This document shows, piece after piece, positions 4,201 through 63,022 of a stretch of 64,000 nucleotides of DNA. The notes beneath the pieces were generated by a model. That model was not told the DNA's origin and made no database searches. It saw only the letters and a program-made list of their open reading frames with translations. The stretch comes from Nonlabens antarcticus (GTDB lineage Bacteria; Bacteroidota; Bacteroidia; Flavobacteriales; Flavobacteriaceae): NCBI RefSeq assembly GCF_015356755.1, contig NZ_JADFCO010000064.1, positions 1-64,000 on the forward strand, written 5' to 3'. Position 1 is the first letter of the stretch. Each line of letters starts with the position of its first letter. The position numbers and the translations under genes are program-made.

Positions 4201-4220
4201 TTCGCTTTCGCGAAAGCGAA
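4201..4220. repeat. Palindrome copy 1 (20 bp perfect, intergenic)
   Basis: TTCGCTTTCGCGAAAGCGAA, 16 nt after the stop of the polyprenyl synthase gene. Core GCTTTCGCGAAAGC at 4204-4217. Confidence 0.95.
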
Positions 4221-4354
4221 TGTTTCATCATAATTAAGACAAGAATTGTCAATCATTCAAGAGCAAAAAACTGACCTCTTTTGCACGTCGTAAGCCCTAT
4301 TTTACCGATTATAACTCTGCTGAAATTAACGTCTTCTTGCGAGCCTAAAAAAAG

Positions 4355-4362
4355 TACCTTTG
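4355..4362 (+). promoter_or_regulatory. -7 promoter element of der
   Basis: TACCTTTG matches TAnnTTTG; a TTG at 4337-4339 could be the -33 element, though the 15-nt gap is short. The start codon is 19 nt downstream. Confidence 0.55.
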
Positions 4363-4381
4363 CAGCTGCAAAAGCAGGATT

Positions 4382-5683
4382 ATGAGTATAGTAGCTATAG
4401 TAGGTCGTCCCAACACGGGAAAAAGCACCCTTTTTAACCGTTTAATCAGACGCCGTGAGGCGATAACCGACGCTAGGAGCGGTGTGACAAGAGATAGACA
4501 TTATGGAAAAAGCGACTGGAATGGTCGTGAATTTTCAGTCATTGATACTGGTGGTTATGCTATAGGTAGTGATGATGTTTTTGAGGAAGAGATCGATAAG
4601 CAGGTAGAACTTGCCATCGATGAGGCTGACGTTATCTTATTCCTAGTCGATGCAGCAGATGGGATTACCCGGGAAGATGAGGATGTTGCAAATCTATTGC
4701 GCAAGATCAAAAAAACTGTTTTACTCGTTGTTAATAAGGTTGATAATCCTACAAGAGAGCAAGCAGCATATGAATTCTATAATTTAGGATTGGGCGATTA
4801 TTATTCCATTTCCAGTATTAGCGGTAGTGGAACTGGTGACTTGCTAGATGCCGTGGTAGAAGCTTTGCCAGAACATGTGGAGGTTGAAGAAGAGGATCTA
4901 CCTCGATTTGCTGTAGTAGGACGTCCTAATGCAGGAAAGTCTTCTTTCATCAATGCACTTATCGGACAAGAACGCTATATCGTTACTGACATTGCTGGAA
5001 CGACAAGGGATTCTATGGATACCAAATACAGTCGTTTTGGTTTTGAATTCAATTTAGTTGATACCGCAGGAATTCGCCGTAAGAAAAAGGTAAAAGAAGA
5101 CTTGGAGTTTTATAGCGTGATGCGCAGTGTACGTGCCATAGAACATTGTGATGTATGTCTTGTCGTGATGGATGCCACTCGTGGCTTTGATGGTCAGGTG
5201 CAGAACATATTCTGGCTGGCAGAGCGCAACCGTAAGGGAATTGTGATACTCGTAAATAAATGGGATCTTGTGGAAAAAGATACCAACTCCGCTCGAGATT
5301 ATGAGGCAGAAATCCGTCGTGAGATGGAACCATTTACAGATGTTCCCATTGTATTTATATCGGTTTTGAACAAGCAACGTATTTTCAAAGCTATTGAGAC
5401 GGCTGTAGAAGTTTACAAAAACCGAAGCAAGAAAATTAAGACCAGTAAATTAAATGAGATCATGTTGCCTATTATTGAGCACACGCCACCGCCATCGCTT
5501 AAAGGTAAGTTTGTCAAGATCAAGTTTATTACACAGTTGCCTACATCACAGCCACAGTTTGCTTTTTTCTGTAATTTGCCACAATATGTACGTGATCCTT
5601 ACAAGCGCTTTTTAGAAAATAAATTACGAGAGAATTTTGACTTTAACGGAGTTCCCGTGAGCGTTTACATGAGGAAAAAGTAA
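4382..5683 (+). CDS. der: Ribosome biogenesis GTPase Der (EngA)
   Basis: 433 aa with two tandem GTPase domains, the hallmark of Der. Domain 1 has GRPNTGKST at residues 8-16, DTGG and NKVD; domain 2 has GRPNAGKSS near 180, DTAG and NKWD; a KH-like domain follows and ends in [13 protein letters not shown]. Der acts in assembly of the 50S subunit. Length matches the family. It is preceded by its own promoter. Confidence 0.97.
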
Positions 5684-5725
5684 TAGATCAATATTTTAAA
5701 CGTTTTTATTATAGACTAAAAGATT

Positions 5726-8488
5726 ATGAAAAGGATTTTATTCATGGGTATGCTTTTTTTAACGAGCACTACCGTTTTTGCACAACAATTCAACATTACA
5801 GGAACCGTGGTGGACTCCTTAACTAAGCAAAAACTACTGAGTACGACTGTTTTCTTAGAATCTGCTCAGGACTCGACTTTAGTCACCTATTCAATCACAG
5901 ATATTGAAGGTAATTTTACATTAACGGGAAATACTAATTATGAGATTCTGAATTTCTTTACGTCGTTTCAAGGATATAAAGAAATTACTCAAACCATTGA
6001 TCTTTCAAAGGAGCGCAACTTTGACATGGGTACCATTTTACTGAGTAGTGATATTGAATCATTAGGGGATGTTGTGGTCAAAGCTCGAAAAGCACCGATC
6101 ACGGTCAAAAAAGACACCCTTGAATTTAATGCAAAATCTTTTAATACTCAGGCAGATGCAACGCTAGAAGATGTTATCAAACAGCTACCAGGAGTTGAAC
6201 TGGACAAGGAAGGTAAGATAACCGTGAATGGTAAAGAGGTCACTAAAATTCTAGTAAACGGGAAAGAATTCTTTGGTGATGATCCACAAATTGCTTTAAA
6301 AAATCTTCCTAAAGATATAATTGACAAAATTCAGGTAACCGAATCAAAAACCGAAGAGCAAAAGCAATCTGGAGATTCTGGAGATGATAATGCGAGTGAG
6401 ATTAATATCACTATTGATAAAGATAAGAACAAAGGAATTTTCTCTAGACTTACCGCTGGTGGTGGTACGGACGATCGATATTCTTTAAGCGGTATCGTGA
6501 ACTACTTTAATGAAGAGTTTAGAGTTAGTGTTTTGGGAAGTAGCAATAACATTAACAGTCCTGGTTTTTCTTTTGATGAGATCTACGATGCAATGGGAAG
6601 AAGTGCGTACTCCGTGAGCCGCAGTTCCGGTGGAAGTTTTGGAATTAACGGTCTCAACTTTGGTGGCGGTGGTGGAATCACGAGCAGTAGATCAGCTGGA
6701 CTTAATGTGACTAATGAATTTAGTGAAAAGCTGGAAACTGATGGAAATTACTTCTACGGTAAATCTGATAATATCTCAGAAAGTAATTCAAGAAGAACCA
6801 CTTTTCTACCAGACCGTACCTTTACTACAGAAAGTGCTAACCGCAGTAATAGCCTGGGTGATAATCATAGATTTGGAGCTAGGATAACTATCAAGCCAGA
6901 TACTTTAACTACTATTTATTTTAGACCTAGTGGTACGATCTCAGATAATACTGGATTTAGCGACCGATTTTCTGAATCTTCAGATGAGCAGGGAAATGTT
7001 ATCAACGATGTTACTACATCAAACCAGAATACGTCAGACAATCGAAGTTTATCTGCTAACCTATATGTGAGTCGCAGGTTAAAGACAAAAGGAAGTTATC
7101 TAAGTATTTCTGCGGAGGTTTCTGATAATAAGAGTGACTCTGAAAATTTGTTTAACTCGGTTAGAAACACGTTTGGGAACAATAATACTAGTGAGGTACA
7201 AGACCAACTTATTGAGCAAAATACCCAGAATACAGAGTATAGCTTGAATCCAACTTACCGTCAAGCTTTTAGTGAAGCCTGGCGTGCAAAAATTGAATAT
7301 AATTATATCAACAGGGACCAAACCAGCAACCGTAGTGTTTTTGATCTGAACGTAGGTGGTGGTCAGAATGCTTTTGATCCTTCTTTGAGCAACGATTTTA
7401 ATGTATTAAGTGAGCAACACCGTCCAGAATTAGGAGTGGAATATGAAAAAAACGATCTACGGGTAGAATTAGGAACCGGTTATATCTATCAAACTCTCGA
7501 GAGCAAGGATGTTTTGCAACAATCTAGTTTTGATAAGGATTTTAATAATATCTATTTGCGTGCAAACATTCGTCAGAAATTAGGAAAATTTGGTCGTATG
7601 TCCTTAAGTTACCGCAATGGTGTTGATGTTCCTAGCGTTCGACAATTGCAACCAGTAGCAGACCGTACAGACCCTACAAATATTGTCGTGGGTAATCCAG
7701 ACCTTAACGCCACAGTAAACCACAATATTTCTGTGAACCTGAGCAACTATAATTGGGAAACAAATCAAGGTTTTTTTATGGGTGGTAGACTAACCTTCAA
7801 TCAAGATGATGTTACCGCTATAACAACGACCGATGAGAATTTGATACGTACCACTAGCTATACAAACGTTGATGGCAATAGAAATGGTTATGTGTATGCA
7901 GATTATAACAAATCCTGGAAAAAAGACAACCGTGAAATAGGTGGTGGACTTTCCTTGAACGGGAACTACAACCGTAATTTTGGTTTTACTAATGGGGCAA
8001 TGTTTGAAAGTGTGGCGACCACCATCACTCCAGGAGCAGAGTTTGAATATTCCATAGTGGACCTATTTGATATAGATATAGAATACAGTCTCAACCTGAA
8101 TAACACGGCTTATGATATTTCTTCCATCGAGGATCAAGAATTTGTAAATCACAATCTTTCCATTGACCTCACGTCCTACTGGCCTAAGAACATTACTACC
8201 GGTTTGCGTGGAGAGTATAACCGTTATGGCAATGTATCTCCAGAATTTGACAACGATAGTTTTGTGCTCATCGGTAGTCTGGGGTATAAATTTGCAGGAG
8301 ATAAAGCGATCGTTAAAGTAACGGCCTATGATATTCTTGACCAGGTGATTAGCACGAGGCGTGTGGCTACACAAGATTACGTTCTTGATACCAGTAGCTT
8401 AGTTTTACAACAATATTTCATGGCTAGTTTTACCTATAAGTTTTCAAGATTCGGTGGTAAGGATCCTAATAATAATAGAAGAGGCTAA
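5726..8488 (+). CDS. Outer-membrane beta-barrel protein with carboxypeptidase-regulatory-like domain
   Basis: 920 aa. Signal peptide (MKRILFMGMLFLTSTTVFA), then a carboxypeptidase-regulatory-like beta-sandwich at about 22-110 (ITGTVVDSLTKQKLL), a plug-like segment (EDVIKQLPGVELDKEGKITV, 145-215) and a long beta-strand barrel rich in Asn, Ser and Tyr ending in Phe-rich strands. This is the architecture of TonB-dependent-receptor relatives (OMP_b-brl_3 type) common in Flavobacteriaceae. No partner SusD gene is adjacent, so the substrate is unknown. A Gly/Ser-rich loop near 295-320 is unusually simple in composition. Confidence 0.8.
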   Translation: MKRILFMGMLFLTSTTVFAQQFNITGTVVDSLTKQKLLSTTVFLESAQDSTLVTYSITDIEGNFTLTGNTNYEILNFFTSFQGYKEITQTIDLSKERNFDMGTILLSSDIESLGDVVVKARKAPITVKKDTLEFNAKSFNTQADATLEDVIKQLPGVELDKEGKITVNGKEVTKILVNGKEFFGDDPQIALKNLPKDIIDKIQVTESKTEEQKQSGDSGDDNASEINITIDKDKNKGIFSRLTAGGGTDDRYSLSGIVNYFNEEFRVSVLGSSNNINSPGFSFDEIYDAMGRSAYSVSRSSGGSFGINGLNFGGGGGITSSRSAGLNVTNEFSEKLETDGNYFYGKSDNISESNSRRTTFLPDRTFTTESANRSNSLGDNHRFGARITIKPDTLTTIYFRPSGTISDNTGFSDRFSESSDEQGNVINDVTTSNQNTSDNRSLSANLYVSRRLKTKGSYLSISAEVSDNKSDSENLFNSVRNTFGNNNTSEVQDQLIEQNTQNTEYSLNPTYRQAFSEAWRAKIEYNYINRDQTSNRSVFDLNVGGGQNAFDPSLSNDFNVLSEQHRPELGVEYEKNDLRVELGTGYIYQTLESKDVLQQSSFDKDFNNIYLRANIRQKLGKFGRMSLSYRNGVDVPSVRQLQPVADRTDPTNIVVGNPDLNATVNHNISVNLSNYNWETNQGFFMGGRLTFNQDDVTAITTTDENLIRTTSYTNVDGNRNGYVYADYNKSWKKDNREIGGGLSLNGNYNRNFGFTNGAMFESVATTITPGAEFEYSIVDLFDIDIEYSLNLNNTAYDISSIEDQEFVNHNLSIDLTSYWPKNITTGLRGEYNRYGNVSPEFDNDSFVLIGSLGYKFAGDKAIVKVTAYDILDQVISTRRVATQDYVLDTSSLVLQQYFMASFTYKFSRFGGKDPNNNRRG

Positions 8489-8498
8489 GATCTTTATG

Positions 8499-8528
8499 AC
8501 GAGTTAGCTTTCGCGAAAGCGAACTCGT
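8499..8528. repeat. Palindrome copy 2 within a longer hairpin
   Basis: Core GCTTTCGCGAAAGC at 8507-8520, extended by ACGAGTT/AACTCGT arms with one A/G mismatch, followed by TTT. It begins 11 nt after the beta-barrel gene stop and may serve as its terminator. Confidence 0.9.
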
Positions 8529-8754
8529 TTAAACTCTTTTAGGAACGATAATTTTAGCAACGACCATTTTAATTCACACATTTTACTAAAATCAGTCATA
8601 GAAAACTCTAGGTAGGATTCCATCGTATATCTTATCATAACTGACTTATTTATATTCTTCCCAACTATTTTGTCGACTTGTTTTGACTTACTATACTTGT
8701 AAGCTTAGGACATTGTAAAATGAATATGCAATTGTCCTTTAAATCTTTCTTCCC

Positions 8755-10943: not shown

Positions 10944-12344
10944 ATGAAGTCGCGTTTACAGAATGGCTTTGGAATATTATTGATTCTTAGTTTTTTTTGT
11001 TACGCTATATTTAGTTCGCTTTCGCGAAAGCAGTTTTCTGATAGCCTTATTTGCTATGCAGGATTATTTGTGCTCTTTTTTGGATTTTACTGGATCTCAA
11101 AAAAAGCCGAAGCTAAAAACCTCTCCTTATTTCCAGCTTATCTAGGAAAATGGTTGCGGCAACCCTCGTATATAATAGCCTGGTTTTTTGCAGGAATCGC
11201 GCTGCGGCTCGTATTTTTATGGGATACTCCTAATTTGTCTCAGGATTTCTTTAGGTTCATTTGGGATGGGCATCTACTTCTCAATGGCTTGAATCCGTAT
11301 CTCTATTTACCTGATGATATCATCAAATCAACTGCCGACTTCATTCCAAATGCTACATTTTTACATGCATCAATGGGCGAGCTATCTAGCGGTCATTACA
11401 CGAATTACCCACCTCTCAACCAACTTTTCTTTGCTGTTGCGGCTTATTTAGGTGGTGAAAGCATGCTTGCTAGTGTTATCTGGATGCGGTTGTTTATAAT
11501 ATGTTTTGATATTCTAATATTCATATATGGACTTAAGTTATTGGGATTATTAGGAAAACCAGATTACTTGATGCTTTTATACTTTTTGAATCCTTTTATT
11601 ATTATTGAATTAACCGGAAACCTACACTGGGAAGGCGTGATGGCTTGCTTGATGCTGATGGGAGTTTACTATTTCATAAGCTATGACCGCATCAAAAGTC
11701 CCATCTTTTTGGGTTTTGGAATCTTGTTAAAACTGCTTCCTTTGATGATTTTACCATTGTTAATCAAAGGAATGCGCTGGAAAAAGGCCGTATGGTATTT
11801 TTTAATATTGACAGCAACGGTCTCTTTGGGTTTTGCACCTTTTATATCGCAACAGCTGATCTCAAATTACAGTTCTTCCGTAGGACTATGGTTTGGAACT
11901 TTTGAATTTAATGCCAGTATTTACTACCTGATTCGATATATCGGTTTTGAGATTACTGGTTACAATATCATAGGCATTGTTGGCAAGATCCTACCGTTAG
12001 TAACGTTTATGGTTATTTTATTGTTCGCCGCCATTAGAAAAAACCAATTTCCAGAAATTCTGCTGGGAAGTATTCTGTTTTCGTTCACGGTATATATAAT
12101 GCTTTCCACCACCGTCCATCCCTGGTATTTGACCATTCCATTATTGTTTTCCATATTCACCAGATATAGATATATGGTGCTATGGAGTGCCTTAGTATTT
12201 TTGAGTTATTCTGCTTATTCAAATCTAGATTTTCAAGAAAATTTGTGGTTGATAGGTATAGAATATGCTTTAGTTTTAGGGTTCCTCATTTATGAACTCA
12301 CAAAAAATTCTAATTATCTAGTACAACCACCACACGCAGATTAG
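10944..12344 (+). CDS. Multi-pass membrane glycosyltransferase (GT87/mannosyltransferase-like)
   Basis: 466 aa with about ten or more hydrophobic segments. A loop with SQDFFRFIWDGHLLLNGLNP resembles the acidic first loop of polyprenol-phosphate-sugar-dependent GT-C enzymes. The start follows the previous stop without a gap. It would take sugar from the lipid carrier made by the first gene (inference). The palindrome at 11018-11031 is read in this gene as Ser-Leu-Ser-Arg-Lys in the loop after the first helix. Confidence 0.75.
   Translation: MKSRLQNGFGILLILSFFCYAIFSSLSRKQFSDSLICYAGLFVLFFGFYWISKKAEAKNLSLFPAYLGKWLRQPSYIIAWFFAGIALRLVFLWDTPNLSQDFFRFIWDGHLLLNGLNPYLYLPDDIIKSTADFIPNATFLHASMGELSSGHYTNYPPLNQLFFAVAAYLGGESMLASVIWMRLFIICFDILIFIYGLKLLGLLGKPDYLMLLYFLNPFIIIELTGNLHWEGVMACLMLMGVYYFISYDRIKSPIFLGFGILLKLLPLMILPLLIKGMRWKKAVWYFLILTATVSLGFAPFISQQLISNYSSSVGLWFGTFEFNASIYYLIRYIGFEITGYNIIGIVGKILPLVTFMVILLFAAIRKNQFPEILLGSILFSFTVYIMLSTTVHPWYLTIPLLFSIFTRYRYMVLWSALVFLSYSAYSNLDFQENLWLIGIEYALVLGFLIYELTKNSNYLVQPPHAD
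11018..11031. repeat. Palindrome copy 3 (inside the GT-C gene)
   Basis: Exact 14-bp core. Read in frame as TCG CTT TCG CGA AAG, Leu-Ser-Arg-Lys. Confidence 0.95.
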
Positions 12345-16963: not shown

Positions 16964-17902
16964 CTAATCCTCATTTATGTTCTTCATTTTCTTCAATCCC
17001 GCTTTCGCGAAAGCGTTTTCAGCATCATATCCAGCCTCACCTTCCAGGGCAATATCTTTAAACTTGTAGCTCAACATTTTATAATACAATTTTGCCGCAA
17101 GGAAATCAGACGCCTTCTCATTAGGGTTGGGGCACAATTCAACAATGTCAAATCCTACCACATTCTTCTCTTCAAAAACACCTTTTAGAAATTCTAATGT
17201 CTCATACCAGAATAAACCTCCTGGCTCCGGAGTCCCAGTAGATGGACAAATTGAAGGGTCAAAACCGTCCAAGTCTATGGTGATAAACACGTTGTCCGTC
17301 AAGGCTTCTGTAGCTTTTTCCTGCCAGTAATCATCTTGCGCCATATCGTGCGCATAAAAAGTCTTTTCATCCTCATTGATTCCCAACTCTGCACTGTCCA
17401 TGCTACGAATACCTACCTGTATCAGATTTGTAGTTTGACTGGCCTCATAAACGGCACAGGCATGGTTACAGGAACTGCCGTCGTATTCTTTTCTCAAATC
17501 TGCATGCGCATCAATTTGCAGCACGCTCAAGTTTTCAAACATTTCATTAAAAGCACGTATGCTTCCTATAGAAATAGAATGTTCCCCCCCAAAAAGGGTT
17601 ACGAACTTATTCTTCTTGATATATTTTTTAGTGATTGCGTGAACAGCATCTACCATCGCTTCTGGCGAACTATTTTCTGTTACAGCATTTGCTAAAAATA
17701 CACCGTGTTGGTAAACTTCTGTATCGGTTTCAATATCGTATAATTCCATGTTGCGACTCGCGTCCAGGAATGCATCAGGACCTTTGTCTGCTCCTTTTTG
17801 CCAGGTGCTGGTTCCATCATAGGGAACCGGAATAAGAACAATGGAGGCTTTGTCTAATCCAGCATATTCATCTTCAATGCCGGCATAATTTTTAGTGCTC
17901 AT
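16964..17902 (-). CDS. speB: Agmatinase (ureohydrolase family)
   Basis: 312 aa. Arginase/agmatinase fold with the manganese ligand motifs GGEHS, DAHAD (QIDAHADLR) and the ITIDLDGFDPS signature. It would hydrolyse agmatine to putrescine and urea. It lies 50 nt after the arginine decarboxylase and 18 nt before the deoxyhypusine-synthase-like gene, so the three form an operon. The C-terminus carries a palindrome copy read as Ala-Phe-Ala-Lys-Ala (17001-17016). Confidence 0.92.
   Translation of the reverse strand: MSTKNYAGIEDEYAGLDKASIVLIPVPYDGTSTWQKGADKGPDAFLDASRNMELYDIETDTEVYQHGVFLANAVTENSSPEAMVDAVHAITKKYIKKNKFVTLFGGEHSISIGSIRAFNEMFENLSVLQIDAHADLRKEYDGSSCNHACAVYEASQTTNLIQVGIRSMDSAELGINEDEKTFYAHDMAQDDYWQEKATEALTDNVFITIDLDGFDPSICPSTGTPEPGGLFWYETLEFLKGVFEEKNVVGFDIVELCPNPNEKASDFLAAKLYYKMLSYKFKDIALEGEAGYDAENAFAKAGLKKMKNINED
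17001..17016. repeat. Palindrome copy 4 (inside speB)
   Basis: 16-bp perfect palindrome CGCTTTCGCGAAAGCG in the 3' part of speB, read as Ala-Phe-Ala-Lys-Ala. Confidence 0.95.
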
Positions 17903-17952: not shown

Positions 17953-19344
17953 TTAATAGCCTAAAATATCCAGCATTTGTTCTGATGTCTGTTGATCCCT
18001 AAAGATCCTGGATTGCAACTCGCCGTTATCGTCCCTATCAATAAGAATGTGTTTAGGAGTAGGGATCAAGCAGTGTTGTAAACCACCGTAACCACCTATT
18101 GATTCTTGATAAGCACCGGTATTGAAAAATCCTATGTATAAAGGTTTGTCTTTGTGATATTTAGGCAAGTAAATGGCATTCATGTTTTGCTCACTATTGT
18201 AGTAGTCATCGCTATCGCAGGTCAATCCACCTAATAGTACTCGCTCATATTCATCATTCCAGCGGTTGAGGGGCAACATGATAAACCTCTTACTGATCGC
18301 CCAGGAGTCTGGAAGTGTTGTAATAAATGAGCTATTAATCATGCTCCATTTCTCACGGTCATTCTGTTGCTTTTGATGCAAGATCTTATAAATCGCACCA
18401 CCGCTTTCACCTACGGTAAAGGAACCAAATTCTGTAAACAAATGTGGGACATCAACACCAGAATCATCACATACGATCTTGATCTGGCTCACGATTTCTT
18501 CTACCATGTATTGATAGTCAAATTCAAAGGCCAGGCTGTTTTTGATAGGAAAACCTCCACCTATATTTAAACTATCAAGTGACGGGCACATTTTCTTAAG
18601 TTGCACGTAAACTTGCAAACATTTATGCAGTTCATTCCAGTAATAAGCGGTATCGCGTATTCCCGTATTTATGAAAAAGTGGAGCATCTTAAGTTCCACC
18701 TGATCGTTGCCTTCAATCTGATTTTTATAAAAGCCTTGGATACTTTTGTAACCTATTCCTAACCTGCTGGTGTAGAATTCAAACTTAGGCTCCTCTTCAC
18801 TCGCAATGCGTATTCCTACTTTAAATTTCTTTTCCGTTGCTTGCTGTAAAAGCGGTAATTCTTCTAAATTGTCAATAACTGGAATACAGTTGTGTTGCCC
18901 ATCATTAATAAGACTGGCAATATTCTCGATATATAAATCACGCTTAAAACCGTTACAGATTACATATGTATCCTTGTCGATTTTCCCGTTTGCCTTCAGA
19001 CTTTTTACAATATTGATATCAAATGCACTGCTGGTCTCGATATGGATATCGTTCTTTAATGCCTCATCTAGGACATGTTTGAAATGCGAGCTTTTAGTGC
19101 AATAGCAATAGGTGTAGGATGCTTTGTAGTCCGCTTTCGCGAAAGCAGCACTGAACCATCCTTTTGCACGGTTTATATTTTCTGAAATCTTAGGTAAATA
19201 CGTAAATTTCAAGGGGCTACCATATTCCTGAACCAGCTGCATCAAATCGATGCCGTGGAATTGCAGTTGGCGTTCTGTTAGCTCAAATTCCTCTGTCGGA
19301 AAATGGTACGTTTGATCTATAAGATCTATGTATTTGGTATTCAA
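17953..19344 (-). CDS. speA: Arginine decarboxylase (fold III, short form)
   Basis: 463 aa. PLP-dependent decarboxylase of the alanine-racemase fold: the PLP Lys is Lys84 in CTKSSH, GGGFP (near 268) binds phosphate, and the C-terminal domain has VLLGGLTCDSDDY with the conserved Cys-Asp. It is much shorter than the 630-660-aa enterobacterial SpeA, as is usual for the Bacteroidota form. Its place before speB supports arginine as substrate. A palindrome copy at 19133-19146 is read as Ala-Phe-Ala-Lys-Ala. Confidence 0.88.
   Translation of the reverse strand: MNTKYIDLIDQTYHFPTEEFELTERQLQFHGIDLMQLVQEYGSPLKFTYLPKISENINRAKGWFSAAFAKADYKASYTYCYCTKSSHFKHVLDEALKNDIHIETSSAFDINIVKSLKANGKIDKDTYVICNGFKRDLYIENIASLINDGQHNCIPVIDNLEELPLLQQATEKKFKVGIRIASEEEPKFEFYTSRLGIGYKSIQGFYKNQIEGNDQVELKMLHFFINTGIRDTAYYWNELHKCLQVYVQLKKMCPSLDSLNIGGGFPIKNSLAFEFDYQYMVEEIVSQIKIVCDDSGVDVPHLFTEFGSFTVGESGGAIYKILHQKQQNDREKWSMINSSFITTLPDSWAISKRFIMLPLNRWNDEYERVLLGGLTCDSDDYYNSEQNMNAIYLPKYHKDKPLYIGFFNTGAYQESIGGYGGLQHCLIPTPKHILIDRDDNGELQSRIFRDQQTSEQMLDILGY
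19133..19146. repeat. Palindrome copy 5 (inside speA)
   Basis: Exact 14-bp core, read as Ala-Phe-Ala-Lys-Ala shortly before the PLP lysine. Confidence 0.95.
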
Positions 19345-23690: not shown

Positions 23691-23824
23691 AATTAGGGTT
23701 TTTAGGTTGCATACAAAACCCTCAAATTGTGTCATTCGTATGTTGAGTGTATTAGAGTTTTGTTAAACTATGTCAAGAAGATCCCAACCTTGATTTCTTA
23801 AAAGCAGATAATGTGAGGCTTATA

Positions 23825-23842
23825 TCGCTTTCGCGAAAGCGA
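23825..23842. repeat. Palindrome copy 6 (18 bp, intergenic)
   Basis: TCGCTTTCGCGAAAGCGA, between the mscS-like gene end and the OmpA gene start, just beyond the mscS terminator. Confidence 0.95.
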
Positions 23843-23856
23843 ACTCCTTCACAAAA

Positions 23857-23887
23857 AAAGTTCCGAAAAGAGAATTTTCGGAACTTT
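23857..23887 (-). terminator. Terminator of the mscS-like gene
   Basis: AAAGTTCCGAAAA (23857-23869) pairs perfectly with TTTTCGGAACTTT (23875-23887), 5-nt loop, T-run on the minus strand. Confidence 0.9.
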
Positions 23888-26801: not shown

Positions 26802-26876
26802 GATATTTCCATTTTGGAGTTATCTCCCTAAGGTAATAATTGTTTTGCTCTGATTATCAGAAAAGTATAGTTATTT

Positions 26877-26892
26877 CGCTTTCGCGAAAGCG
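26877..26892. repeat. Palindrome copy 7 (16 bp, intergenic)
   Basis: CGCTTTCGCGAAAGCG between the divergent NTF2-like gene and the ECF sigma gene. Confidence 0.95.
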
Positions 26893-27044
26893 TGATGCCA
26901 CCTGCTTTAAACCTCTTTTCTAACAATACTGTTTTCCATAGGATTCTGCTATTTTAGCATGGAGATTAAAAAATAATATTTTTCAAATTTTCAGGCAACC
27001 ATTTAAAAATAGCGGTGTCTATATAAATAGAAAGCACCTAAAAC

Positions 27045-30465: not shown

Positions 30466-30495
30466 GTTAGCTCGTTTCATTGAAATCTTGTGTGT

Positions 30496-30515
30496 TTCGC
30501 TTTCGCGAAAGCGAA
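30496..30515. repeat. Palindrome copy 8 (20 bp, intergenic)
   Basis: TTCGCTTTCGCGAAAGCGAA, identical to copy 1, just upstream of the dnaG promoter. Confidence 0.95.
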
Positions 30516-30535
30516 CTCCTCACAAACCTTTTCCC

Positions 30536-34073: not shown

Positions 34074-34092
34074 AATCGTATTTTTACCATCT

Positions 34093-34100
34093 CAAAAATA
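34093..34100 (-). promoter_or_regulatory. -7 promoter element of nadE
   Basis: TATTTTTG on the minus strand, 19 nt before the nadE start. Confidence 0.45.
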
Positions 34101-34124
34101 TCCAAAGCAATGGATAGTTACTAC

Positions 34125-44117: not shown

Positions 44118-45478
44118 TGGTATCAGGAAAAAACATATATGATTTTTCAAGTGTCGTCATTTTAGGTGGCGGTATCAGCGGTATGGGCGCTGCCTTACTG
44201 GCTGCTGATCGTGGTTATAATGTTTTTCTGAGCAATAGAGATGAGCTTGATACCGCTTTCGCGAAAGCGTTACAAGACAACAAAATTCCTTACGAAACAG
44301 GAAGTCATACGGTTAATAAAATACTCTCAGCAAGTTTGATCGTGAAAAGTCCGGGAATACCGGACACTATCGAGATTATAATGCAAGCAAAAGAAGCTGG
44401 AATCCCAGTGATATCAGAAATCGAATTTGCAGCCGCGCATACCCAAGAAATTATAGTGGCAGTAACTGGAAGCAATGGTAAAACCACAACGACCAGCTTA
44501 CTAGGACACGTTTTTCAAGAAGCCGGACTCGATTATACAATGGGTGGGAACATAGGTAAAAGCTTTGCTCAACAAGTTCAGGAAGGTGCTGCAGAATACC
44601 GACTGCTCGAGGTGAGTAGTTTCCAACTGGACGGCATTGAAAACTTTAAGCCACACGTGGCGCTATTACTTAATGTAACTCCAGACCATCTGGATCGCTA
44701 CGATTATAAATTTGAGAACTATCTGGATTCTAAAATGCGTATTGCAATGAATCAAGATCAAGATGATTATCTCGTTTACAATGCAGATGATGAGGCTATA
44801 GTTGCCGCCTTAGAATCTAACAAACCAAAATCACAACTGGTTCCCTTCTCCTTGACAAGAGAGTTGGAATACGGTACATCACTAATAAACAACATCATAA
44901 AGGTCGCTATTGACCAAACACCATTTTCTATGTCAATTGAACAACTTTCCCTCAAGGGTCAACACAATACTGCTAATGCAATGGCAGCAGCAACTACTGC
45001 AAAACTTTTAAAAATCCGTAAGGAGACGATTCGTCAGAGCATGCAATCATTTCAAGGGGTGGAGCACCGTCTGGAGCAGGTTTTGAAGATTAATAAGGTG
45101 CAATATATCAACGATTCCAAGGCAACAAATATTAACGCAACTTTCTATGCATTAGATAGTATGGAGCATCCTACCGTATGGATTGTGGGTGGCGTTGATA
45201 AAGGAAATGATTACTCGCAGCTATTCCGTCTGGTGAATAAAAACGTGAAGGCAATTGTTTGTTTGGGAACAGACAACTCTAAAATCGTCAATGCTTTTAG
45301 TGGCTGTGTGGATCAAATGGTTGAAACAAATTCAATGGAAGATGCTGTGCGTGTTGCCTATAAATTAGCAGATGCTGGTGATAATGTTCTATTGAGTCCA
45401 GCTTGCGCAAGTTTTGACCTTTTTGAAAACTATGAGGATCGCGGACGCCAATTCAAAAATGCTGTAAGAGGACTATAA
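44117..45478 (+). CDS. murD: UDP-MurNAc-L-Ala D-Glu ligase MurD
   Basis: 453 aa. N-terminal Rossmann-like domain (VILGGGISGMG), ATP loop VTGSNGKTTTT, NDSKATN, ending SPACASFDLFENYEDRG. The palindrome copy at 44254-44269 is read as Ala-Phe-Ala-Lys-Ala in the N-terminal domain. Confidence 0.96.
   Translation: MVSGKNIYDFSSVVILGGGISGMGAALLAADRGYNVFLSNRDELDTAFAKALQDNKIPYETGSHTVNKILSASLIVKSPGIPDTIEIIMQAKEAGIPVISEIEFAAAHTQEIIVAVTGSNGKTTTTSLLGHVFQEAGLDYTMGGNIGKSFAQQVQEGAAEYRLLEVSSFQLDGIENFKPHVALLLNVTPDHLDRYDYKFENYLDSKMRIAMNQDQDDYLVYNADDEAIVAALESNKPKSQLVPFSLTRELEYGTSLINNIIKVAIDQTPFSMSIEQLSLKGQHNTANAMAAATTAKLLKIRKETIRQSMQSFQGVEHRLEQVLKINKVQYINDSKATNINATFYALDSMEHPTVWIVGGVDKGNDYSQLFRLVNKNVKAIVCLGTDNSKIVNAFSGCVDQMVETNSMEDAVRVAYKLADAGDNVLLSPACASFDLFENYEDRGRQFKNAVRGL
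44254..44269. repeat. Palindrome copy 11 (inside murD)
   Basis: CGCTTTCGCGAAAGCG, read as Ala-Phe-Ala-Lys-Ala. Confidence 0.95.
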
Positions 45479-46679: not shown

Positions 46680-47763
46680 AATCATCATATCTGGCGGTGG
46701 CACTGGAGGTCACATCTATCCCGCGATCTCGATTGCAAACGAGTGCCGTCGCAGGTGGCCCGATTGTGAGCTTCTTTTTGTGGGAGCAAAGGATCGCATG
46801 GAAATGGAAAAAGTTCCAGCAGCTGGTTATGAAATTAAGGGATTGTGGATAAGCGGACTACAGCGCAGCCTTTCCTTAAAGAATCTGTCATTCCCATTAA
46901 AAGTGGCAAATAGTCTGATAGATGCACGTAAGATTATCAAAGAATTTCAACCGGATATTGCTATTGGTACAGGTGGATATGCCAGTGGCCCGTTATTGTA
47001 TATGGCTTATAGAAAGGGAGTTCCAACGCTTATTCAAGAGCAGAATTCCTATGCTGGAATAACGAATAAGTTACTGGCTAAAAAAGTAGATAAGGTCTGT
47101 GTGGCCAGTGACAACATGGATCGGTTTTTTCCAAAGAAAAGGATAGTTCTCACGGGAAACCCTATTCGTCAGGATCTGGTGGAGCAAAATGCTGATAGCA
47201 AAACAGCTTTAAAACATTTTAAGCTGGATGCTGCGTCAAATCATAAAAAGACATTGCTAGTATTAGGCGGTAGCCTGGGTTCTAGAAGAATTAATCAGCT
47301 AATTGAAGCAGAGTTGCCCACGCTGGAAAAAGACGTTCAGGTTTTATGGCAGTGTGGAAAACTATATTATGATCAATATAAACATCACGAGTCTGAACAA
47401 GTTAAAGTGATGGCGTTTGTAGATCGTATGGACCTGGCTTATGCAGCGGCAGATATTATCATATCACGGGCTGGTGCTGGAACGATTTCAGAACTTGCAC
47501 TGGTTGGAAAACCGGTACTATTTATTCCTTCACCTCATGTTGCTGAAGATCACCAGACTAAAAATGCGCTGGCCATCCAGAATCTGGATGCAGCATTAAT
47601 GATACGGGAGGAGGAACTATCAGAAAACTTCCCAATGATATGGAAGCAACTGATGGAGGACGAGCAATTGCAAGAAAAATTATCTGCTAATTTCTCAAAA
47701 ATTGCAAAACCAAACGCTACCAGAGACATTGTGAACCAAATTGAAAATTTACTTCATGCGTGA
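46666..47763 (+). CDS. murG: Lipid II synthase MurG
   Basis: 365 aa, GTG start overlapping ftsW by 14 nt. [31 protein letters not shown] and [11 protein letters not shown] are typical. Adds GlcNAc to lipid I. Confidence 0.96.
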
Positions 47764-49114
47764 GTTGAAAGACATAACCCATTTTTATTTCGTCGGTATA
47801 GGCGGCATAGGCATGAGTGCGCTTGCTCGGTATTTTAAATCGCAAGGCAAGCAGGTAGCGGGTTATGATCGTGTGGCAACAACGCTGACAAATAAATTAG
47901 TGGTGGAGGGAATTTCTTTGCACTACAACGACAACTACGATTACATACCTGACGGGTTTAAAGATCCTGAAAAAGCCTTAGTGGTTTATACACCTGCAGT
48001 TCAACAGGGATTTGGAGAAATGGTTCGCTTTCGCGAAAGCGGAATTCCCATCACTAAACGAGCACAATTGCTGGGTGAAATATCTAAAACTATGACCTGT
48101 CTAGCTATTGCTGGAACTCATGGTAAAACAACAACAAGTGCTATTTTGGCACATATATTATACGCCAGCGGTGTGAAAATGACTGCGTTTTTAGGTGGTA
48201 TTCTGGAGGGATATAATACAAATTACCTTCATTCTGGAAGTGATGTAATGGTGGTGGAGGCTGATGAATTCGATAGATCATTCCTACAGCTTGATCCTGA
48301 TTTTGCTGGAGTAACTGCTATGGATCCAGACCATCTCGATATTTATGGCAGCGCAGAAGCCTTTGAGGAAACGTTCAAGGAATTTGCAGTTCTCGTCCCT
48401 AATGATCAGCTTTTCATAAACGAAAATGTAGAACTAGATGGAAAAAGGGTAGGAGTGGATCATGGTGATTATTATGCTCAAGAACTATCAATCGTTGACG
48501 GCGCATATCATTTTGATTTTCTTACTCCGCAAGAGGTCATCAGCGATTTCTCTTTCAAGCTTCCCGGAAGACATAATTTAGCAAATGCTTTATTAGCTCT
48601 TTCCATAGCCCATAGCTATGGAGTTCAAGCTGAGAAATTGCGTTCAACAATAGCAAGTTTTGAAGGAGTCGAACGCCGGTTTAGTTACAGAATCGACTCT
48701 GAAGAATACGTGTTAATTGATGATTATGCGCACCACCCTACAGAAATAGATGCAGTTTATAATGCGGTCAAAGAAATGTATCCTGATGAAAAATACACCG
48801 TCATTTTTCAGCCTCATCTATATTCCAGAACTGCTGATTTTATGGAGGAGTTTGCAATAAGCTTGAGCCAGTTTGATAATGTCGGTCTTCTAGAGATATA
48901 TGCCGCTAGAGAAGAGCCAGTTCATGGCATTAGTTCAGGTGTTTTGAGCACACGTATTTATGCACAAGAAAATGCACCAATGGTTAGCTCTGTAGTTGAA
49001 AAAATAGATTTAGTAGAGTTTATAAAAGAAATGGGCAGCCGGATTGTCCTAATGTTGGGAGCTGGAGATATAGGTGTAGAAGTAACTAAAGTAAAAGAGC
49101 AATTAGGTTCATGA
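47756..49114 (+). CDS. murC: UDP-MurNAc L-alanine ligase MurC
   Basis: 452 aa from ATG 47756, overlapping murG by 8 nt; an in-frame start 15 nt further up is less likely. [16 protein letters not shown] loop [20 protein letters not shown]. The palindrome copy at 48027-48042 is read as Arg-Phe-Arg-Glu-Ser, a frame different from the murD copy. Confidence 0.96.
48027..48042. repeat. Palindrome copy 12 (inside murC)
   Basis: CGCTTTCGCGAAAGCG, read as Arg-Phe-Arg-Glu-Ser; the only copy in this frame. Confidence 0.95.
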
Positions 49115-51655: not shown

Positions 51656-53680
51656 ATGAGCAACGACGATTTCAACAGTATTTCATTTGACCTCCCTAAA
51701 AACCAGTCTAACGTGATTAAGGTTATAGGTGTAGGCGGTGGTGGCAGTAATGCCATCAAACACATGTTTCAGCAAGGAATTAAAGGTGTGGATTTTGTTA
51801 TCTGTAATACAGATGCACAAGCCCTAGAAAATAGTCCTGTCCCTAATAAAATCCAGTTGGGAGTATCTCTGACGGAAGGTTTAGGAGCGGGAGCAAATCC
51901 AGAAGTGGGTGAGAGGGCAGCTCAAGAAAGTATTGAGGAATTAAGAGCAATGCTCGACCCTCGCACTAAAATGGTATTTATTACCGCTGGAATGGGTGGT
52001 GGTACAGGAACTGGAGCGGCACCCGTGATTGCACAGGTGGCTCGCGACATGGAGATTTTAACCGTCGGGATCGTAACCACTCCTTTCCATTTTGAGGGTA
52101 AGGTTCGTAATGAACAGGCCCAAAAAGGGATTGAAAAATTCCGCCGTAATGTGGATTCACTAGTTATTATCAACAATAATAAACTGCGTGATGTTTATGG
52201 AAATCTAGGATTTAAAGCTGGGTTTAGCAAGGCAGACGAGGTTCTTGCTACGGCTTCCCGTGGTATTGCAGAGGTGATTACCAACCACTACACGCAAAAT
52301 ATTGACTTGCGCGATGCTAAAACCGTGCTTGCAAATTCTGGAACTGCCATTATGGGAAGTGCCCAGGCAACGGGATCTAACCGTGCCCAAGAAGGAATTT
52401 TGAAGGCGCTCGATAGCCCGCTGTTGAATGATAATAAAATCACAGGTGCTAAAAACGTATTGCTACTTATCGTTTCTGGGTCTGAAGAAATTACTATTGA
52501 CGAGATAGGAGAAATTAACGAGCATATTCAGAATGAGGCCGGCGGTGGTGCAAACATTATTATGGGAGTTGGCGAGGATGAATCTCTAGGTGATGCGATT
52601 GCTGTAACGGTGATTGCGACGGGATTTAATGCAGAGCAACAAAATGAGATCTCAAATACAGAGGGCACTAGAATTATCCACACTCTAGAGGAGGAGCAAC
52701 GTGCTACTCAAGTTTTAGATGATAAAAAGGACCGTGTCGTTGCGGGAACTTTGATCATGGATGACAATGATGTTGCTCAAGAGGATGCTCAAAATCAGAA
52801 CATATTAAACGATTCATTAGATGATAATGAGTCTGAGAATGAGTCCGCTTTCGCGAAAGCGGAAACTCCACAAAATCCTGCACCAGCACAAGCTCCATCA
52901 GAGCCAGTGATCATCGTACACGATTTAGGCGATGAGCATCCTGAAGAAATTATTACGCCTAAGAATCAGAACCCACTAATTCCTACTACAGAGTTTTTGA
53001 GAAACCTAAGTGTCGTTTTTGAAGAGGTACTTGATCAAGAGCCTAAACTAGTCGTTAGTCGATCAGCAGAAGCTCCAGCACAGAAAAAGGCGGAAACTAG
53101 AGAGGAAAAAGATCAGTTTTTATTTGACTTTGAAATGCCGGCAAGTAAAAATAAAGAGGCGGAACACGAAGCGCCACAAGAAAAAATCACTTATCAATTA
53201 GATGATATTGAAGTGAATGATCCAGTAGCTGTGATTCCAGTGACTGAGGTTTCTAATGAGGGCGTAAAGAAATATTCTCTTGATGATTACATGGAAGTTG
53301 AACGAAAATTGAATAGTGCTTCTTCATCCCCTAAAAAATCTTATGTAGAAGAAGTCCATATTACAACAATGGAAACGCCACAAGAAGATTTAAAAAAGGA
53401 GATTCCAGCAGATGTAGATCCTACAGATTTACCTATAAATGAAGTATTGAAATTGAGAGCGGAAGAACGTAAAACAAAGATGCATGCTCATAATTTCAAA
53501 TTCAAAAGCAGTCATAGACTGGACGAGATTGAAAAAAAACCGGCTTATTTGCGTCATGGTATTGAACTGGATAAAAATCCTTCAGAGGGAGAACGATCCA
53601 GAACAAGTCTTTCCACAGATGAGAATAACGATGTTCATCTAAGATCAAACAACTCCTTTCTTCACGATAACGTGGACTAG
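51656..53680 (+). CDS. ftsZ: Tubulin-like division GTPase FtsZ with long C-terminal tail
   Basis: 674 aa. GTPase domain (residues 20-335) with GVGGGGSNAI and GGGTGTGAAP. The tail of about 340 residues is acidic and low-complexity, rich in Glu, Asp, Gln and Pro; near residue 628 KPAYLRHGIELD may be the conserved peptide that binds FtsA. The total is far longer than the 383 aa of E. coli, which is usual for this family. A palindrome copy at 52854-52873 lies in the tail (Ala-Phe-Ala-Lys-Ala). Confidence 0.97.
   Translation: MSNDDFNSISFDLPKNQSNVIKVIGVGGGGSNAIKHMFQQGIKGVDFVICNTDAQALENSPVPNKIQLGVSLTEGLGAGANPEVGERAAQESIEELRAMLDPRTKMVFITAGMGGGTGTGAAPVIAQVARDMEILTVGIVTTPFHFEGKVRNEQAQKGIEKFRRNVDSLVIINNNKLRDVYGNLGFKAGFSKADEVLATASRGIAEVITNHYTQNIDLRDAKTVLANSGTAIMGSAQATGSNRAQEGILKALDSPLLNDNKITGAKNVLLLIVSGSEEITIDEIGEINEHIQNEAGGGANIIMGVGEDESLGDAIAVTVIATGFNAEQQNEISNTEGTRIIHTLEEEQRATQVLDDKKDRVVAGTLIMDDNDVAQEDAQNQNILNDSLDDNESENESAFAKAETPQNPAPAQAPSEPVIIVHDLGDEHPEEIITPKNQNPLIPTTEFLRNLSVVFEEVLDQEPKLVVSRSAEAPAQKKAETREEKDQFLFDFEMPASKNKEAEHEAPQEKITYQLDDIEVNDPVAVIPVTEVSNEGVKKYSLDDYMEVERKLNSASSSPKKSYVEEVHITTMETPQEDLKKEIPADVDPTDLPINEVLKLRAEERKTKMHAHNFKFKSSHRLDEIEKKPAYLRHGIELDKNPSEGERSRTSLSTDENNDVHLRSNNSFLHDNVD
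52854..52873. repeat. Palindrome copy 13 (inside ftsZ tail)
   Basis: 20-bp perfect palindrome TCCGCTTTCGCGAAAGCGGA in the disordered tail of FtsZ, read as Ser-Ala-Phe-Ala-Lys-Ala-Glu. Confidence 0.95.
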
Positions 53681-54370: not shown

Positions 54371-54375
54371 CGAAT

Positions 54376-60380: not shown

Positions 60381-60459
60381 TCTAGATCGTTAAGAATGTC
60401 ACGATTGTTGATGGTTCTAATTGTAATATAAATACTTGACGTTAGTTGAGATGTTGATG

Positions 60460-60489
60460 AAAGTTCCGCTTTCGCGAAAGCGGAACTTT
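60460..60489. repeat. Palindrome copy 14 (30 bp perfect), terminator between convergent genes
   Basis: A perfect 30-bp inverted repeat: the core at 60468-60481 is flanked by AAAGTTCC and GGAACTTT and followed by T-rich DNA. It lies between dabA and the convergent penicillin-binding-protein gene and would terminate both. Confidence 0.92.
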
Positions 60490-60508
60490 TATAATTGATA
60501 TCAGAAAC

Positions 60509-62860
60509 TTACTGTTCTTCTTGAACAGCACTGGGAGGAATGATGGATAAACTATCCACCATAACGCTATCCACAACCACCGGAGGATTTCTAAATAGGG
60601 AATCCTTAATCCTCATGGTTTCTAAATAAGTGCTATCGCTTTTGAAATAATTTGTGGCGTCAGATGCACCTTGCTCATCAAAGGCCGGACAGGGAAAGTA
60701 TGGTAAATCGTATTCAAAATTAGTCAACATAGGACGGTTCCAACTGCTCAGGCTTTTGAACATGGAAGCCACCATAGGCATGGCAGTATTAGCACCACTT
60801 CCCATATAGGTACTTTCAAAATGAACCCGTTTGTCACGCGCTCCTACCCAAGAACCGATCACGACTTGCGGCGAAGCTGCGATGAACCACCCATCACCAT
60901 TGTTCTGTGTGGTGCCCGTTTTTCCAATGATATTAAAAGGAATATTCCATCTGCTGAATCCAGCGCCAGTACCTTCTGTCAAAACCTCTCCCATCATTTG
61001 CTGTAGTTTCTTAACACTGCTAGCTGATGCTACACCGCCATCATACTTAGGTTTTGCCTGATACAAAATAGTTCCCTCTGTATCTGTAATTTGCTGGATC
61101 ATGTAGGGATTAACCTTATTGCCGCCGTTGGAAATACTAGCGTATGCCGTCACCATCTCCATCAAACTAATATTTGCGGTTCCTAATACAATAGATGGAA
61201 CTTCTGGAATATCTGAAGTAATCCCCATTTTACGCGCTTTATCTATAGTATTAGAAACTCCTACCTGCAATTGCAATGCAGCAGATATCGTGTTGACTGA
61301 ATTTGCTAATGCACCGTGGAGACTATAGCTACCGCCATAAGATCCGTTACTGTTTTTAGGTTGCCAGTCTTCATATTTGCTATAAGTACGTAGTGAGTTG
61401 TCATAATAGGTACAAGGATCGATTCCTTGATCTAATGCTGTGAGATACGTTATAGGTTTAAAGGTGGAACCTACTTGGTTTTTCCCCTTGATATTATCAA
61501 TCTGGGAAAACCCATAATCGATTCCACCTAAATATCCTAAAATCGCACCATTCCTAGAGTTCATGGCTAGAATACCAGTATGCAAACGAACCATGGAACT
61601 GATGATACTGTCTTCAACAGATTGCTGTCTGGGTTCAAAGCCTTTACCTATTTCCCAATATTTTCTGCTTTTCGTGGTATTTAGATACTGCTGTATTTGA
61701 GCTTCACTCTTGCCAGCTTCCATCATGTTTTTAATCACGGGTTGGATGGCCATTAAATTCTCAATGAAAGCTTCCTTACCACCTTCTGTGGTTTTACTGG
61801 TCCAGTGTTTGTCCATCAAATTCTGTAAACGCACCATATTGCGCTCCATAGTTTGTTCTGCATATTTCTGGATATTAGGTTGTAGTGTGGTGTAAATCTG
61901 AAGCCCATCTAATTCTAAATCATAAACCTCACCATCAGGCCCTGGATTTTCCTTTGCCCATTCATTAAATTCTTCACGCACATATTCTTTATAGTATCCC
62001 GTAAGTGTAGAGTTTTTTTCTGCTGGACTGTATTTCAATACAAGTTCTGTTTTTGCAGCATCTGCTTCTTCTTGAGTGATGACCTCATTTTTTACCATTT
62101 GTTGTAAAACGACATTACGCCGGTTGGTTGAATTCTCAGGATTATTTCTGGGATTATAATAAGAAGGTGCCTTCAAAACTCCTACTAAAGTTGCCGCTTC
62201 TGTAAGAGTTAGGTTTTCAGGAGTCTTGCTAAAAAACCGCTGAGCAGCCTTTTCGATACCGTAAAGATTTTCACCGAATGAAACGGTATTGAAATAAAGT
62301 AGTAGCAATTCTTCTTTTGAATATACTGCTTCTAATCGTTTTGCAATGATTACTTCGCGCATCTTATTAATGGGTGTACTCAAAAACCACAGGTCTTTCC
62401 TTCCAAAAACATTTTTGGCGATCTGTTGTGTGATTGTACTGCCGCCACCTTTACCTTGTTGCATAAGGATAGATTTGACAAAAACGCGACCATAACTTCT
62501 ATAATCAACGCCTGAATGTTCATAAAACCGGACGTCTTCAGTAGCAACTAATGCTTTTATCAAATAAGGATTTAATTGGGTAGAATCGATGTTACTGCGG
62601 TTTTGTAGATAGAAATAAGCAATGGGCTTTTTGTCACTCCCATACACGGTTGAGGTAACCGGGTTTTCTAATTTGGCCAGCTCTTTACCGCTAGGCACAT
62701 GACCGAACAGTCCTGCATAAGTGCCCAAGAATAAAAAACCAACAAACGCGATCCCACATAAAACTAAATACCCAGCAAATTTGAACGGGTGATGTTTTAC
62801 GAAATTTAAAAATCCTTTAAATCTTGAGTTTCTCTTTTGAGAGTCGGTTGACGGGATCAT
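60509..62860 (-). CDS. Bifunctional penicillin-binding protein 1A (class A)
   Basis: 783 aa. Signal-anchor helix at 28-52, GT51 transglycosylase (VATEDVRFYEHSGVDYRS with the catalytic Glu; GGGSTITQQIAKN), then transpeptidase with GSTFKP, SVN and KTGTTQNNGDGW. Polymerises and cross-links peptidoglycan outside dcw. Confidence 0.95.
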   Translation of the reverse strand: MIPSTDSQKRNSRFKGFLNFVKHHPFKFAGYLVLCGIAFVGFLFLGTYAGLFGHVPSGKELAKLENPVTSTVYGSDKKPIAYFYLQNRSNIDSTQLNPYLIKALVATEDVRFYEHSGVDYRSYGRVFVKSILMQQGKGGGSTITQQIAKNVFGRKDLWFLSTPINKMREVIIAKRLEAVYSKEELLLLYFNTVSFGENLYGIEKAAQRFFSKTPENLTLTEAATLVGVLKAPSYYNPRNNPENSTNRRNVVLQQMVKNEVITQEEADAAKTELVLKYSPAEKNSTLTGYYKEYVREEFNEWAKENPGPDGEVYDLELDGLQIYTTLQPNIQKYAEQTMERNMVRLQNLMDKHWTSKTTEGGKEAFIENLMAIQPVIKNMMEAGKSEAQIQQYLNTTKSRKYWEIGKGFEPRQQSVEDSIISSMVRLHTGILAMNSRNGAILGYLGGIDYGFSQIDNIKGKNQVGSTFKPITYLTALDQGIDPCTYYDNSLRTYSKYEDWQPKNSNGSYGGSYSLHGALANSVNTISAALQLQVGVSNTIDKARKMGITSDIPEVPSIVLGTANISLMEMVTAYASISNGGNKVNPYMIQQITDTEGTILYQAKPKYDGGVASASSVKKLQQMMGEVLTEGTGAGFSRWNIPFNIIGKTGTTQNNGDGWFIAASPQVVIGSWVGARDKRVHFESTYMGSGANTAMPMVASMFKSLSSWNRPMLTNFEYDLPYFPCPAFDEQGASDATNYFKSDSTYLETMRIKDSLFRNPPVVVDSVMVDSLSIIPPSAVQEEQ

Positions 62861-63008
62861 ACTTGTTAATTGTGGCTATCGGTGGTTATATCATCAAAAT
62901 TGAACAAAATGCTTTAGGGTTGTCACTTAAATTAGGCAGCATTTTTTAAGCAATTATTTTGATCTTCTTAGTAATATTAAAATACTGGTTTGAATTGCCT
63001 GAATTTAC

Positions 63009-63022
63009 GCTTTCGCGAAAGC
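63009..63022. repeat. Palindrome copy 15 (intergenic)
   Basis: Exact 14-bp core between divergently transcribed genes. Confidence 0.95.

Follow-up and report, generated by a model that had tools for sequence, protein, structure and literature searches.

The 64-kb stretch of Nonlabens antarcticus DNA analyzed here (contig NZ_JADFCO010000064.1, positions 1 to 64,000 of the forward strand; hereafter the window) carries 15 exact copies of the palindromic 14-mer GCTTTCGCGAAAGC, from 4204 to 63009. This 14-mer forms the center of a larger symmetric element, about 52 bp in length. The FtsZ encoded in the window is closest to those of loci named Nonlabens and of one named 'Flavobacteria bacterium BBFL7' (66–78% identity). 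At the left side of the window, element 1 (4185..4236, core 4204–4217), with 2 of 34 excluded bases in its flanks, and element 2 (8488..8539, core 8507–8520), preceded by a stop codon 18 nt upstream, are both intergenic. Element 3 (10999..11050, core 11018–11031) lies near the 5′ end of the open reading frame (ORF) 10944–12344, which gave weak, sub-cut-off glycosyltransferase matches. Element 4 (16982..17033, core 17001–17014) occupies the 3′ end of the minus-strand agmatinase ORF 16964–17902, and element 5 (19114..19165, core 19133–19146) the 5′ part of the minus-strand ORF 17953–19344, which is arginine-decarboxylase-like at a sub-cut-off level. The next three are intergenic: element 6 (23808..23859, core 23827–23840), element 7 (26859..26910, core 26878–26891) with divergent ORFs on either side, and element 8 (30480..30531, core 30499–30512) upstream of dnaG. 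Element 9 (34142..34193, core 34161–34174) is found at the start of gldB within the listed ORF 34008–35102, probably in the 5′ leader of the gene, as the GldB match begins only at residue 56. The segment 39441–53680 contains genes for a penicillin-binding protein, MurD, MurC and FtsZ, each of which harbors an internal element: element 10 (39724..39775, core 39743–39756) in the penicillin-binding-protein ORF 39441–41420, element 11 (44236..44287, core 44255–44268) in murD 44117–45478, read as AFAKA, element 12 (48008..48059, core 48027–48040) in murC 47741–49114, read as FRES, and element 13 (52828..52879, core 52847–52860) in the C-terminal part of ftsZ 51656–53680. Finally, elements 14 (60449..60500, core 60468–60481) and 15 (62990..63041, core 63009–63022) are intergenic, flanked by convergent and divergent ORFs, respectively.

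The original prediction, made from the letters of the window, held that 15 copies in 64 kb lie far above chance. Our recount gave the same 15, and 100 shuffles of the window yielded none; moreover, the window contains no near-match with one or two mismatches and a single one with three. A count near chance outside the window had been named as a ground for rejection, and the opposite was found: the whole genome (3.27 Mb, 66 contigs) contains 611 exact copies of the 14-mer and none of the reversed pattern. Allowing up to two mismatches raised these numbers to 791 and 25, respectively. Thus, the element shares with uptake sequences both the genome-wide over-representation and the steep fall at one to two mismatches. 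The original prediction knew of no description of the motif, and no paper in the open-access literature searched contains the core 14-mer; topic searches there gave nothing on the element, and the ten papers that contain the letters of its inner 10-mer are, by their titles, not on this subject.

The anatomy of the element was derived from 258 copies of four genomes. The base adjoining the core is C in a fraction of 0.87, with the two sides pooled. Farther out, each strand is poor in C on its 5′ side of the core, with a frequency of 0.087 at positions −3 to −19 against 0.153 at −21 to −44 and a minimum of 0.03–0.05 at −4 to −6. This depletion is seen in coding (0.104, n = 163) as well as intergenic copies (0.059, n = 95). 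C rises at −20 and drops again near −24 and −27 (0.09 and 0.10), so that the element has no sharp outer boundary. Disfavored bases number 2.5 of 34 in the median copy, compared with 5 in the outer control zone. On the strand 5′ of the core, host copies are enriched in G and T, and intergenic copies display T peaks at −3/−4 (0.76, 0.66), −7 (0.54), −10 (0.61) and −13 (0.62), a spacing that would fit either roughly one helical turn or a 3-nt periodicity. A half-site by itself shows no enrichment: the half-only counts in four genomes were 4, 4, 7 and 4, against means of 9.1, 7.7, 6.3 and 5.1 for 60 letter-permuted 8-mers, the first two means being too high because some of the permutations occur within the element itself. 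Co-variation between positions −i and +i was found only at position 2 (z 3.9; position 15, z 2.2; 160 copies), and an extended hairpin or RNA element was therefore rejected. This architecture suggests a dimeric protein that would read about 52 bp of double-stranded DNA. Of the functions first proposed, a site for a sequence-specific DNA-binding protein fits the symmetry and the unenriched half-sites, and its suggested link to cell division gained no support, no such link being found for copies that spread genome-wide at 14–23 per 80-kb block of one chromosome. A pure methylation motif is unlikely, given a constrained element of about 52 bp.

Gaps between neighboring copies in the window range from 2132 to 7621 bp, with a mean of 4200 bp, a standard deviation of 1507 bp and a coefficient of variation (CV) of 0.36, in agreement with the earlier hand estimates of about 4.2 kb, 2.1–7.6 kb and about 1.5 kb. 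Extending the measurement to the window plus 16 further stretches of the same genome (384 kb, 71 copies) gave 55 gaps, the shortest of 1913 bp. Their CV of 0.50 speaks against exponential spacing, as random placement gave a mean of 0.90 and the lowest value among 500 random sets was 0.65; none of the 55 gaps is below 1 kb, compared with 11.6 under random placement. In five 80-kb blocks of genome G298, 91 copies have a CV of 0.53 (0.97 at random), and 4 of 86 gaps are below 1 kb (18.0 at random), the shortest being 109 bp; the blocks contain 14, 17, 18, 23 and 19 copies, with no origin-to-terminus trend visible. Similarly, 66 copies in 300 kb of Dokdonia gave a CV of 0.69 (0.99 at random) and 2 of 65 gaps below 1 kb (13.0 at random). 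Evenness is weaker in genome G488, where 30 copies in 160 kb have a CV of 0.85 (0.97 at random) and none of the 29 gaps is below 1 kb (4.9 at random). In the stretches measured, the density is one element per 4.4–5.4 kb.

Two sets of gaps count against evenness. Among the places listed for contigs C55–C58 of N. antarcticus, 42 gaps, including ones of 1147 and 1394 bp, have a CV of 1.38, as one of them is 53 kb long; in contig C4 of the congener G296, the first 94 places listed (93 gaps) have a CV of 0.92, with five gaps below 1 kb. The original prediction is thus confirmed, with short gaps scarce in three genomes, and its general evenness is qualified by these two sets. Site-free stretches in the N. 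antarcticus genome comprise 53 kb in C58 (G000:C58:45586-98869) and 20 kb in C63. From the former, two proteins were scanned, which matched PglZ and an Eco57I/PglX-like methylase, indicating that the stretch holds a BREX-like defense island.

Copies occupy both genes and spacers, as had been noted, although not alike. Using a simple ORF script to assign status, we found 32 of the 71 N. antarcticus copies (45%) to be intergenic, though 86% of the sequence is called coding. The in-gene share is 55% in this genome, 62% in both G298 and Dokdonia, and 90% in G488, in which only 3 of 30 copies are intergenic. In-gene copies use all three frames, with AFAKA dominating (30 of 39 in N. antarcticus). 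All 11 of the Nonlabens or Nonlabens-like loci that were compared have both the murD and the murC copy, read as AFAKA and FRES, and 9 of the 11 have the ftsZ copy, one of these with a single mismatch. Between two strains that bear the name Nonlabens ulvanivorans, one element (position 18782 of both loci) varies, being exact in one strain and having one mismatch in the other. In the MurD alignment, closer motif-poor relatives mostly have YKxVL where Nonlabens has AFAKA, without a gap; in MurC, the FRES of Nonlabens likewise aligns gap-free with closer relatives. These alignments show an origin of the element by substitution in place in the two genes, without insertion, as is the case for uptake sequences, and suggest that a constraint on the DNA overrides protein sequence in MurD and MurC; murD and murC are the informative cases, the FtsZ copy sitting in a length-variable region. 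Dokdonia MurC has a one-mismatch copy at the same codons as Nonlabens, possibly by convergence, since some motif-poor relatives already have FRE there. Downstream of ftsZ, where compensating turnover of sites was considered, only a few copies have an alignable counterpart in another species.

The phylogenetic range of the element is narrow. All 23 Nonlabens genomes searched are rich in it, with 288–857 copies. In three overlapping samples, of 397 genomes of the family, 296 of the order and 395 of the phylum, a match was found in 80, 20 and 22 genomes, respectively. Within the family sample, the rich genomes are four of the same genus, G503 (857 copies), taken to be Dokdonia sinensis, and G488 (408), and the other 391 have 0–19 copies; in the order sample, the 19 genomes besides N. 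antarcticus have 1–6 copies each, and in the phylum sample the eight genomes with a match outside the family have one copy each. Two genomes of genus g224, which stands beside Dokdonia in a small tree, have nine (G450) and six (G622) exact copies and, with up to two mismatches, 86 and 74 against 20 and 10 for the controls; these copies may be what is left of a system since lost. In a FastTree tree of three genes, Nonlabens did not group with Dokdonia and G488. Because this tree is midpoint-rooted, places Nonlabens on a long branch and has many rows that consist of ftsZ only, it is compatible with a single origin, with two or with transfer. As for palindromic dialects in other genera, 54 loci that are poor in the motif and span 12 kb or more (1.05 Mb in total) were searched for palindromes of 10, 12 or 14 nt, and none occurred three or more times, apart from ones made of A and T alone in four loci and, in one locus, a run of N; gapped inverted repeats were outside this search.

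Viral contigs also contain the 14-mer, in at least 120 stretches. The copies among the matches listed were sorted contig by contig into multi-copy (24 stretches, 15 contigs, 37 copies) and single-copy ones (96 stretches, 95 copies). The multi-copy contigs have flanks of the host type, with C at 0.78 in position −1 and 0.102 at −3 to −19, and 23 of their 37 copies have at most 3 of 34 disfavored bases; the flanks of single-copy contigs are not of the host type (0.25 and 0.276), and 2 of 95 copies pass. Mean GC is 0.39 in the former and 0.55 in the latter. The contrast was kept among listed matches with GC below 0.45, where the respective values are 0.76 and 0.086 for 33 multi-copy and 0.19 and 0.186 for 21 single-copy cases. 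In two multi-copy viral stretches of higher GC (four copies), C adjoins the core and the flank depletion is absent (0.235); these stretches, of GC 0.47, have two copies each, 1760 bp apart. The flank-extended pattern was found in 17 viral stretches, and 11 viral contigs examined have 2–4 perfect copies each within their available parts. Ten proteins scanned from three tagged viral contigs gave head protease, portal, capsid, tape-measure and integrase-like matches. In the Nonlabens phages P12024S and P12024L (about 35.7 kb each), which we take to be lytic, no copy was found even with two mismatches, where about seven would be expected at host density.

Islands in motif-poor genera likewise have host-type flanks (0.80 and 0.09; 23 copies, 8 stretches). 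One of them, in genome G102 (G102:C1:300001-340000), encodes metal-efflux pumps of the RND and P-type ATPase types. Copies paired at a distance of 933 bp are found in G102, G512, G412, G398 and G390, so that this island seems to move between genera of Flavobacteriaceae. A related arrangement of genes without the tag may exist in the N. antarcticus genome (locus L223), judged from ORF sizes only. Whatever its role, the element marks DNA that has resided in the rich genera and so traces gene flow into other Flavobacteriaceae.

We tentatively favor, at somewhat less than an even chance, the interpretation that the element is a genome-wide self-DNA tag which works like a DNA uptake sequence. In this putative model, a dimeric receptor would bind the palindromic core CGCTTTCGCGAAAGCG and sense flanks of about 19 bp on each side, in which the strand 5′ to the core is rich in T and poor in C. 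A fragment with one tag would be preferentially accepted and recombined in DNA exchange, one tag being enough for a fragment of several kb. Molecular drive, rather than a benefit to the cell, would then keep isolated tags and let redundant neighbors decay, which could yield the even spacing of 4–5 kb, the build-up by point substitution in genes and spacers, and the presence of tags in resident phages and islands. A gate requiring at least one tag per fragment would make redundant neighbors worthless and hence favor even spacing. As a plausibility check, we ran a toy model that accepts only fragments with at least one tag, in nine settings with one run each and parameters of our own choice. Fragments of 6 kb gave mean gaps of 4.5–5.2 kb, a CV of 0.39–0.44 and 1–3% of gaps below 1 kb; fragments of 3 and 10 kb gave means of 2.4–3.0 and 6.2–7.6 kb, off the observed 4.2–4.5 kb. 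The model is somewhat too even, as the observed CV is 0.50–0.69.

The uptake-tag interpretation is favored because of the few short gaps in three genomes, the enrichment in spacers, the origin by substitution and the scarcity of mismatched copies, and because viral contigs carry the tag with host-type flanks, as the temperate Haemophilus phage HP1 carries uptake cores (17 in 32 kb). The uptake signal of Haemophilus has T-tracts, of which the T peaks in the flanks are reminiscent. The account of uptake sequences in PMC1939737 places 65% of the H. influenzae copies in ORFs and describes a steep drop from zero to one mismatch; that in PMC7811141 presents a relatively even distribution as the expected outcome of molecular drive. 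The latter also describes uptake sequences as under-represented in newly acquired DNA; here, the 53-kb gap holds the BREX-like island, yet other mobile DNA carries the element. Furthermore, a relative, Riemerella columbina, is described in PMC7965970 as preferring its own DNA in transformation. Like the uptake signal sequences of Pasteurellaceae and the DNA uptake sequences of Neisseriaceae, the element occurs in hundreds of near-identical and relatively evenly spread copies, is limited to a clade, is gained by point mutation, is enriched in spacers, travels with phages and combines a core with T-rich flanks. Unlike them, it is palindromic, about 52 bp long, symmetric and several-fold sparser, with few gaps below 1 kb.

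Several observations weigh against this interpretation. Known uptake-sequence systems use type IV pili, and the type IV pilus/type II secretion ATPase family PF00437 was above cut-off in only one of eight rich genomes (G296) and in one of 14 motif-poor ones, leaving seven of the eight rich genomes tested without a detected pilus ATPase; this scarcity weakens the classical uptake-sequence reading as judged from domain matches. The match in G296, at G296:C4:336408-337520, is a strong one of the PilB/GspE type and unique among the eight. ComEC was found in 20 of 20 genomes and is uninformative, because rich and poor ones have it alike. The uptake sequences described in PMC1939737 are not palindromic and are argued there to be less even than chromosome-compacting sites should be, and the density given for Haemophilus in PMC7811141, about one per kb, is several-fold higher than that of the element. 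We found no transformation data for Nonlabens in the literature searched. In addition, regions of conserved gene order have highly stable sites, as in murD and murC, a pattern that fits plain functional selection too. If the uptake-tag interpretation holds, the element would, as far as we know, be the first tag of its kind from Bacteroidota as well as the first that is palindromic, and this in a lineage mostly without the usual pilus motor, and the self-preference seen in Flavobacteriaceae (R. columbina, for which no motif is known) would become testable.

The same gate could be a nuclease, a defense system or a nucleoid protein, which is why we hold the uptake tag only tentatively and consider a chromosome-architecture grid as possible, though doubtful. 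Here, a dimeric nucleoid-associated protein might bind the symmetric element of 52 bp or longer about once per 4.5 kb and organize or bridge the chromosome at intervals of 4–5 kb. Conceivably, ordinary selection would then keep the sites, the distance between neighbors would be the selected trait, and resident phages and islands would have adapted to the host chromosome. Even spacing with rare short gaps, the spread over the whole genome without a visible origin-to-terminus trend in the five G298 blocks, the need for a full palindrome, the conservation at both orthologous sites and the argument of PMC1939737 on compaction sites all agree with such a grid. However, no candidate protein was found, N. 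antarcticus tolerates the site-free 53 and 20 kb, most genera of the family do without the element, and a grid does not obviously predict phage contigs that are fully tagged. A grid, if real, would have no bacterial precedent known to us as an architecture or self-recognition system built on regularly spaced, sequence-identical palindromes, and would be a tractable case of regular chromosome spacing encoded in sequence. The candidate readers tested (ParB family, ParB sequence, AddB-type nuclease, ComEC and pilus/type II ATPase) do not follow the distribution of the element.

We consider it unlikely that the element is a bidirectional recombination hot spot, in effect a palindromic Chi, or a self-protection mark, at which a helicase-nuclease coming from either side would be stopped or re-programmed; on this account, the T/G-rich, C-poor strand 5′ of the core would ease RecA loading. 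Its density is near that of E. coli Chi, and G and T are enriched on the strand that would be kept after the stop, a Chi-like neighborhood on one strand; in the viral multi-copy flanks only T rises. Reading of a single strand predicts enriched half-sites, however, and the half-only counts are not above the permuted controls; Chi differs in this respect from an element that needs its palindrome. At least one AddB-type nuclease domain (PF12705) was found in all 21 genomes tested, motif-poor genera included, and a gain of AddB was thus rejected.

It is quite improbable that the element is a HIP1-like iterated palindrome linked to a DNA methyltransferase or to a bias in mutation or repair. HIP1 (GCGATCGC) is a highly iterated palindrome of unresolved function that is confined, as treated in PMC4390886, to some lineages of cyanobacteria, and it resembles the element in abundance and restriction. 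It is only 8 bp long, in contrast to the present element, which has a 14-bp core with biased flanks, is constrained over about 52 bp and recurs at regular gaps. Its palindromic symmetry, its 52-bp build of core plus flanks and its scarcity of short gaps separate this element from both HIP1 and the uptake sequences as we know them. We know of no methylase with a 14-bp target.

A ParB- or Noc-like binding site for segregation or nucleoid occlusion is highly improbable, although the TTTC..GAAA half-sites resemble the palindromic parS and Noc sites. Hundreds of copies genome-wide far exceed the known cases, and no ParB/Noc-like paralogue limited to rich genomes was found among eight rich and 14 poor ones. 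In six of the eight rich genomes there is one ParB-domain match only, the additional long copies in G000 and G312 are found in poor genomes as well, and a comparison of the chromosomal ParB of seven rich and seven poor genomes showed little difference in its putative recognition helix; retargeting of ParB was thus rejected. Canonical parS, searched with up to two mismatches in the 5-kb stretches around parB of 14 genomes, was absent in rich and poor ones alike, so that this comparison is uninformative. Finally, a transcription terminator or a mobile insertion like the repetitive extragenic palindromes can be set aside almost entirely: a palindrome in many spacers, such as the window copy at 60468 that extends into a longer inverted repeat followed by T, would suit it, but the flanks form no co-varying stem beyond position 2, copies lie within genes in all three frames, those in murC and murD replace residues gap-free, and only 4 of 30 intergenic copies lie between convergent ORFs.

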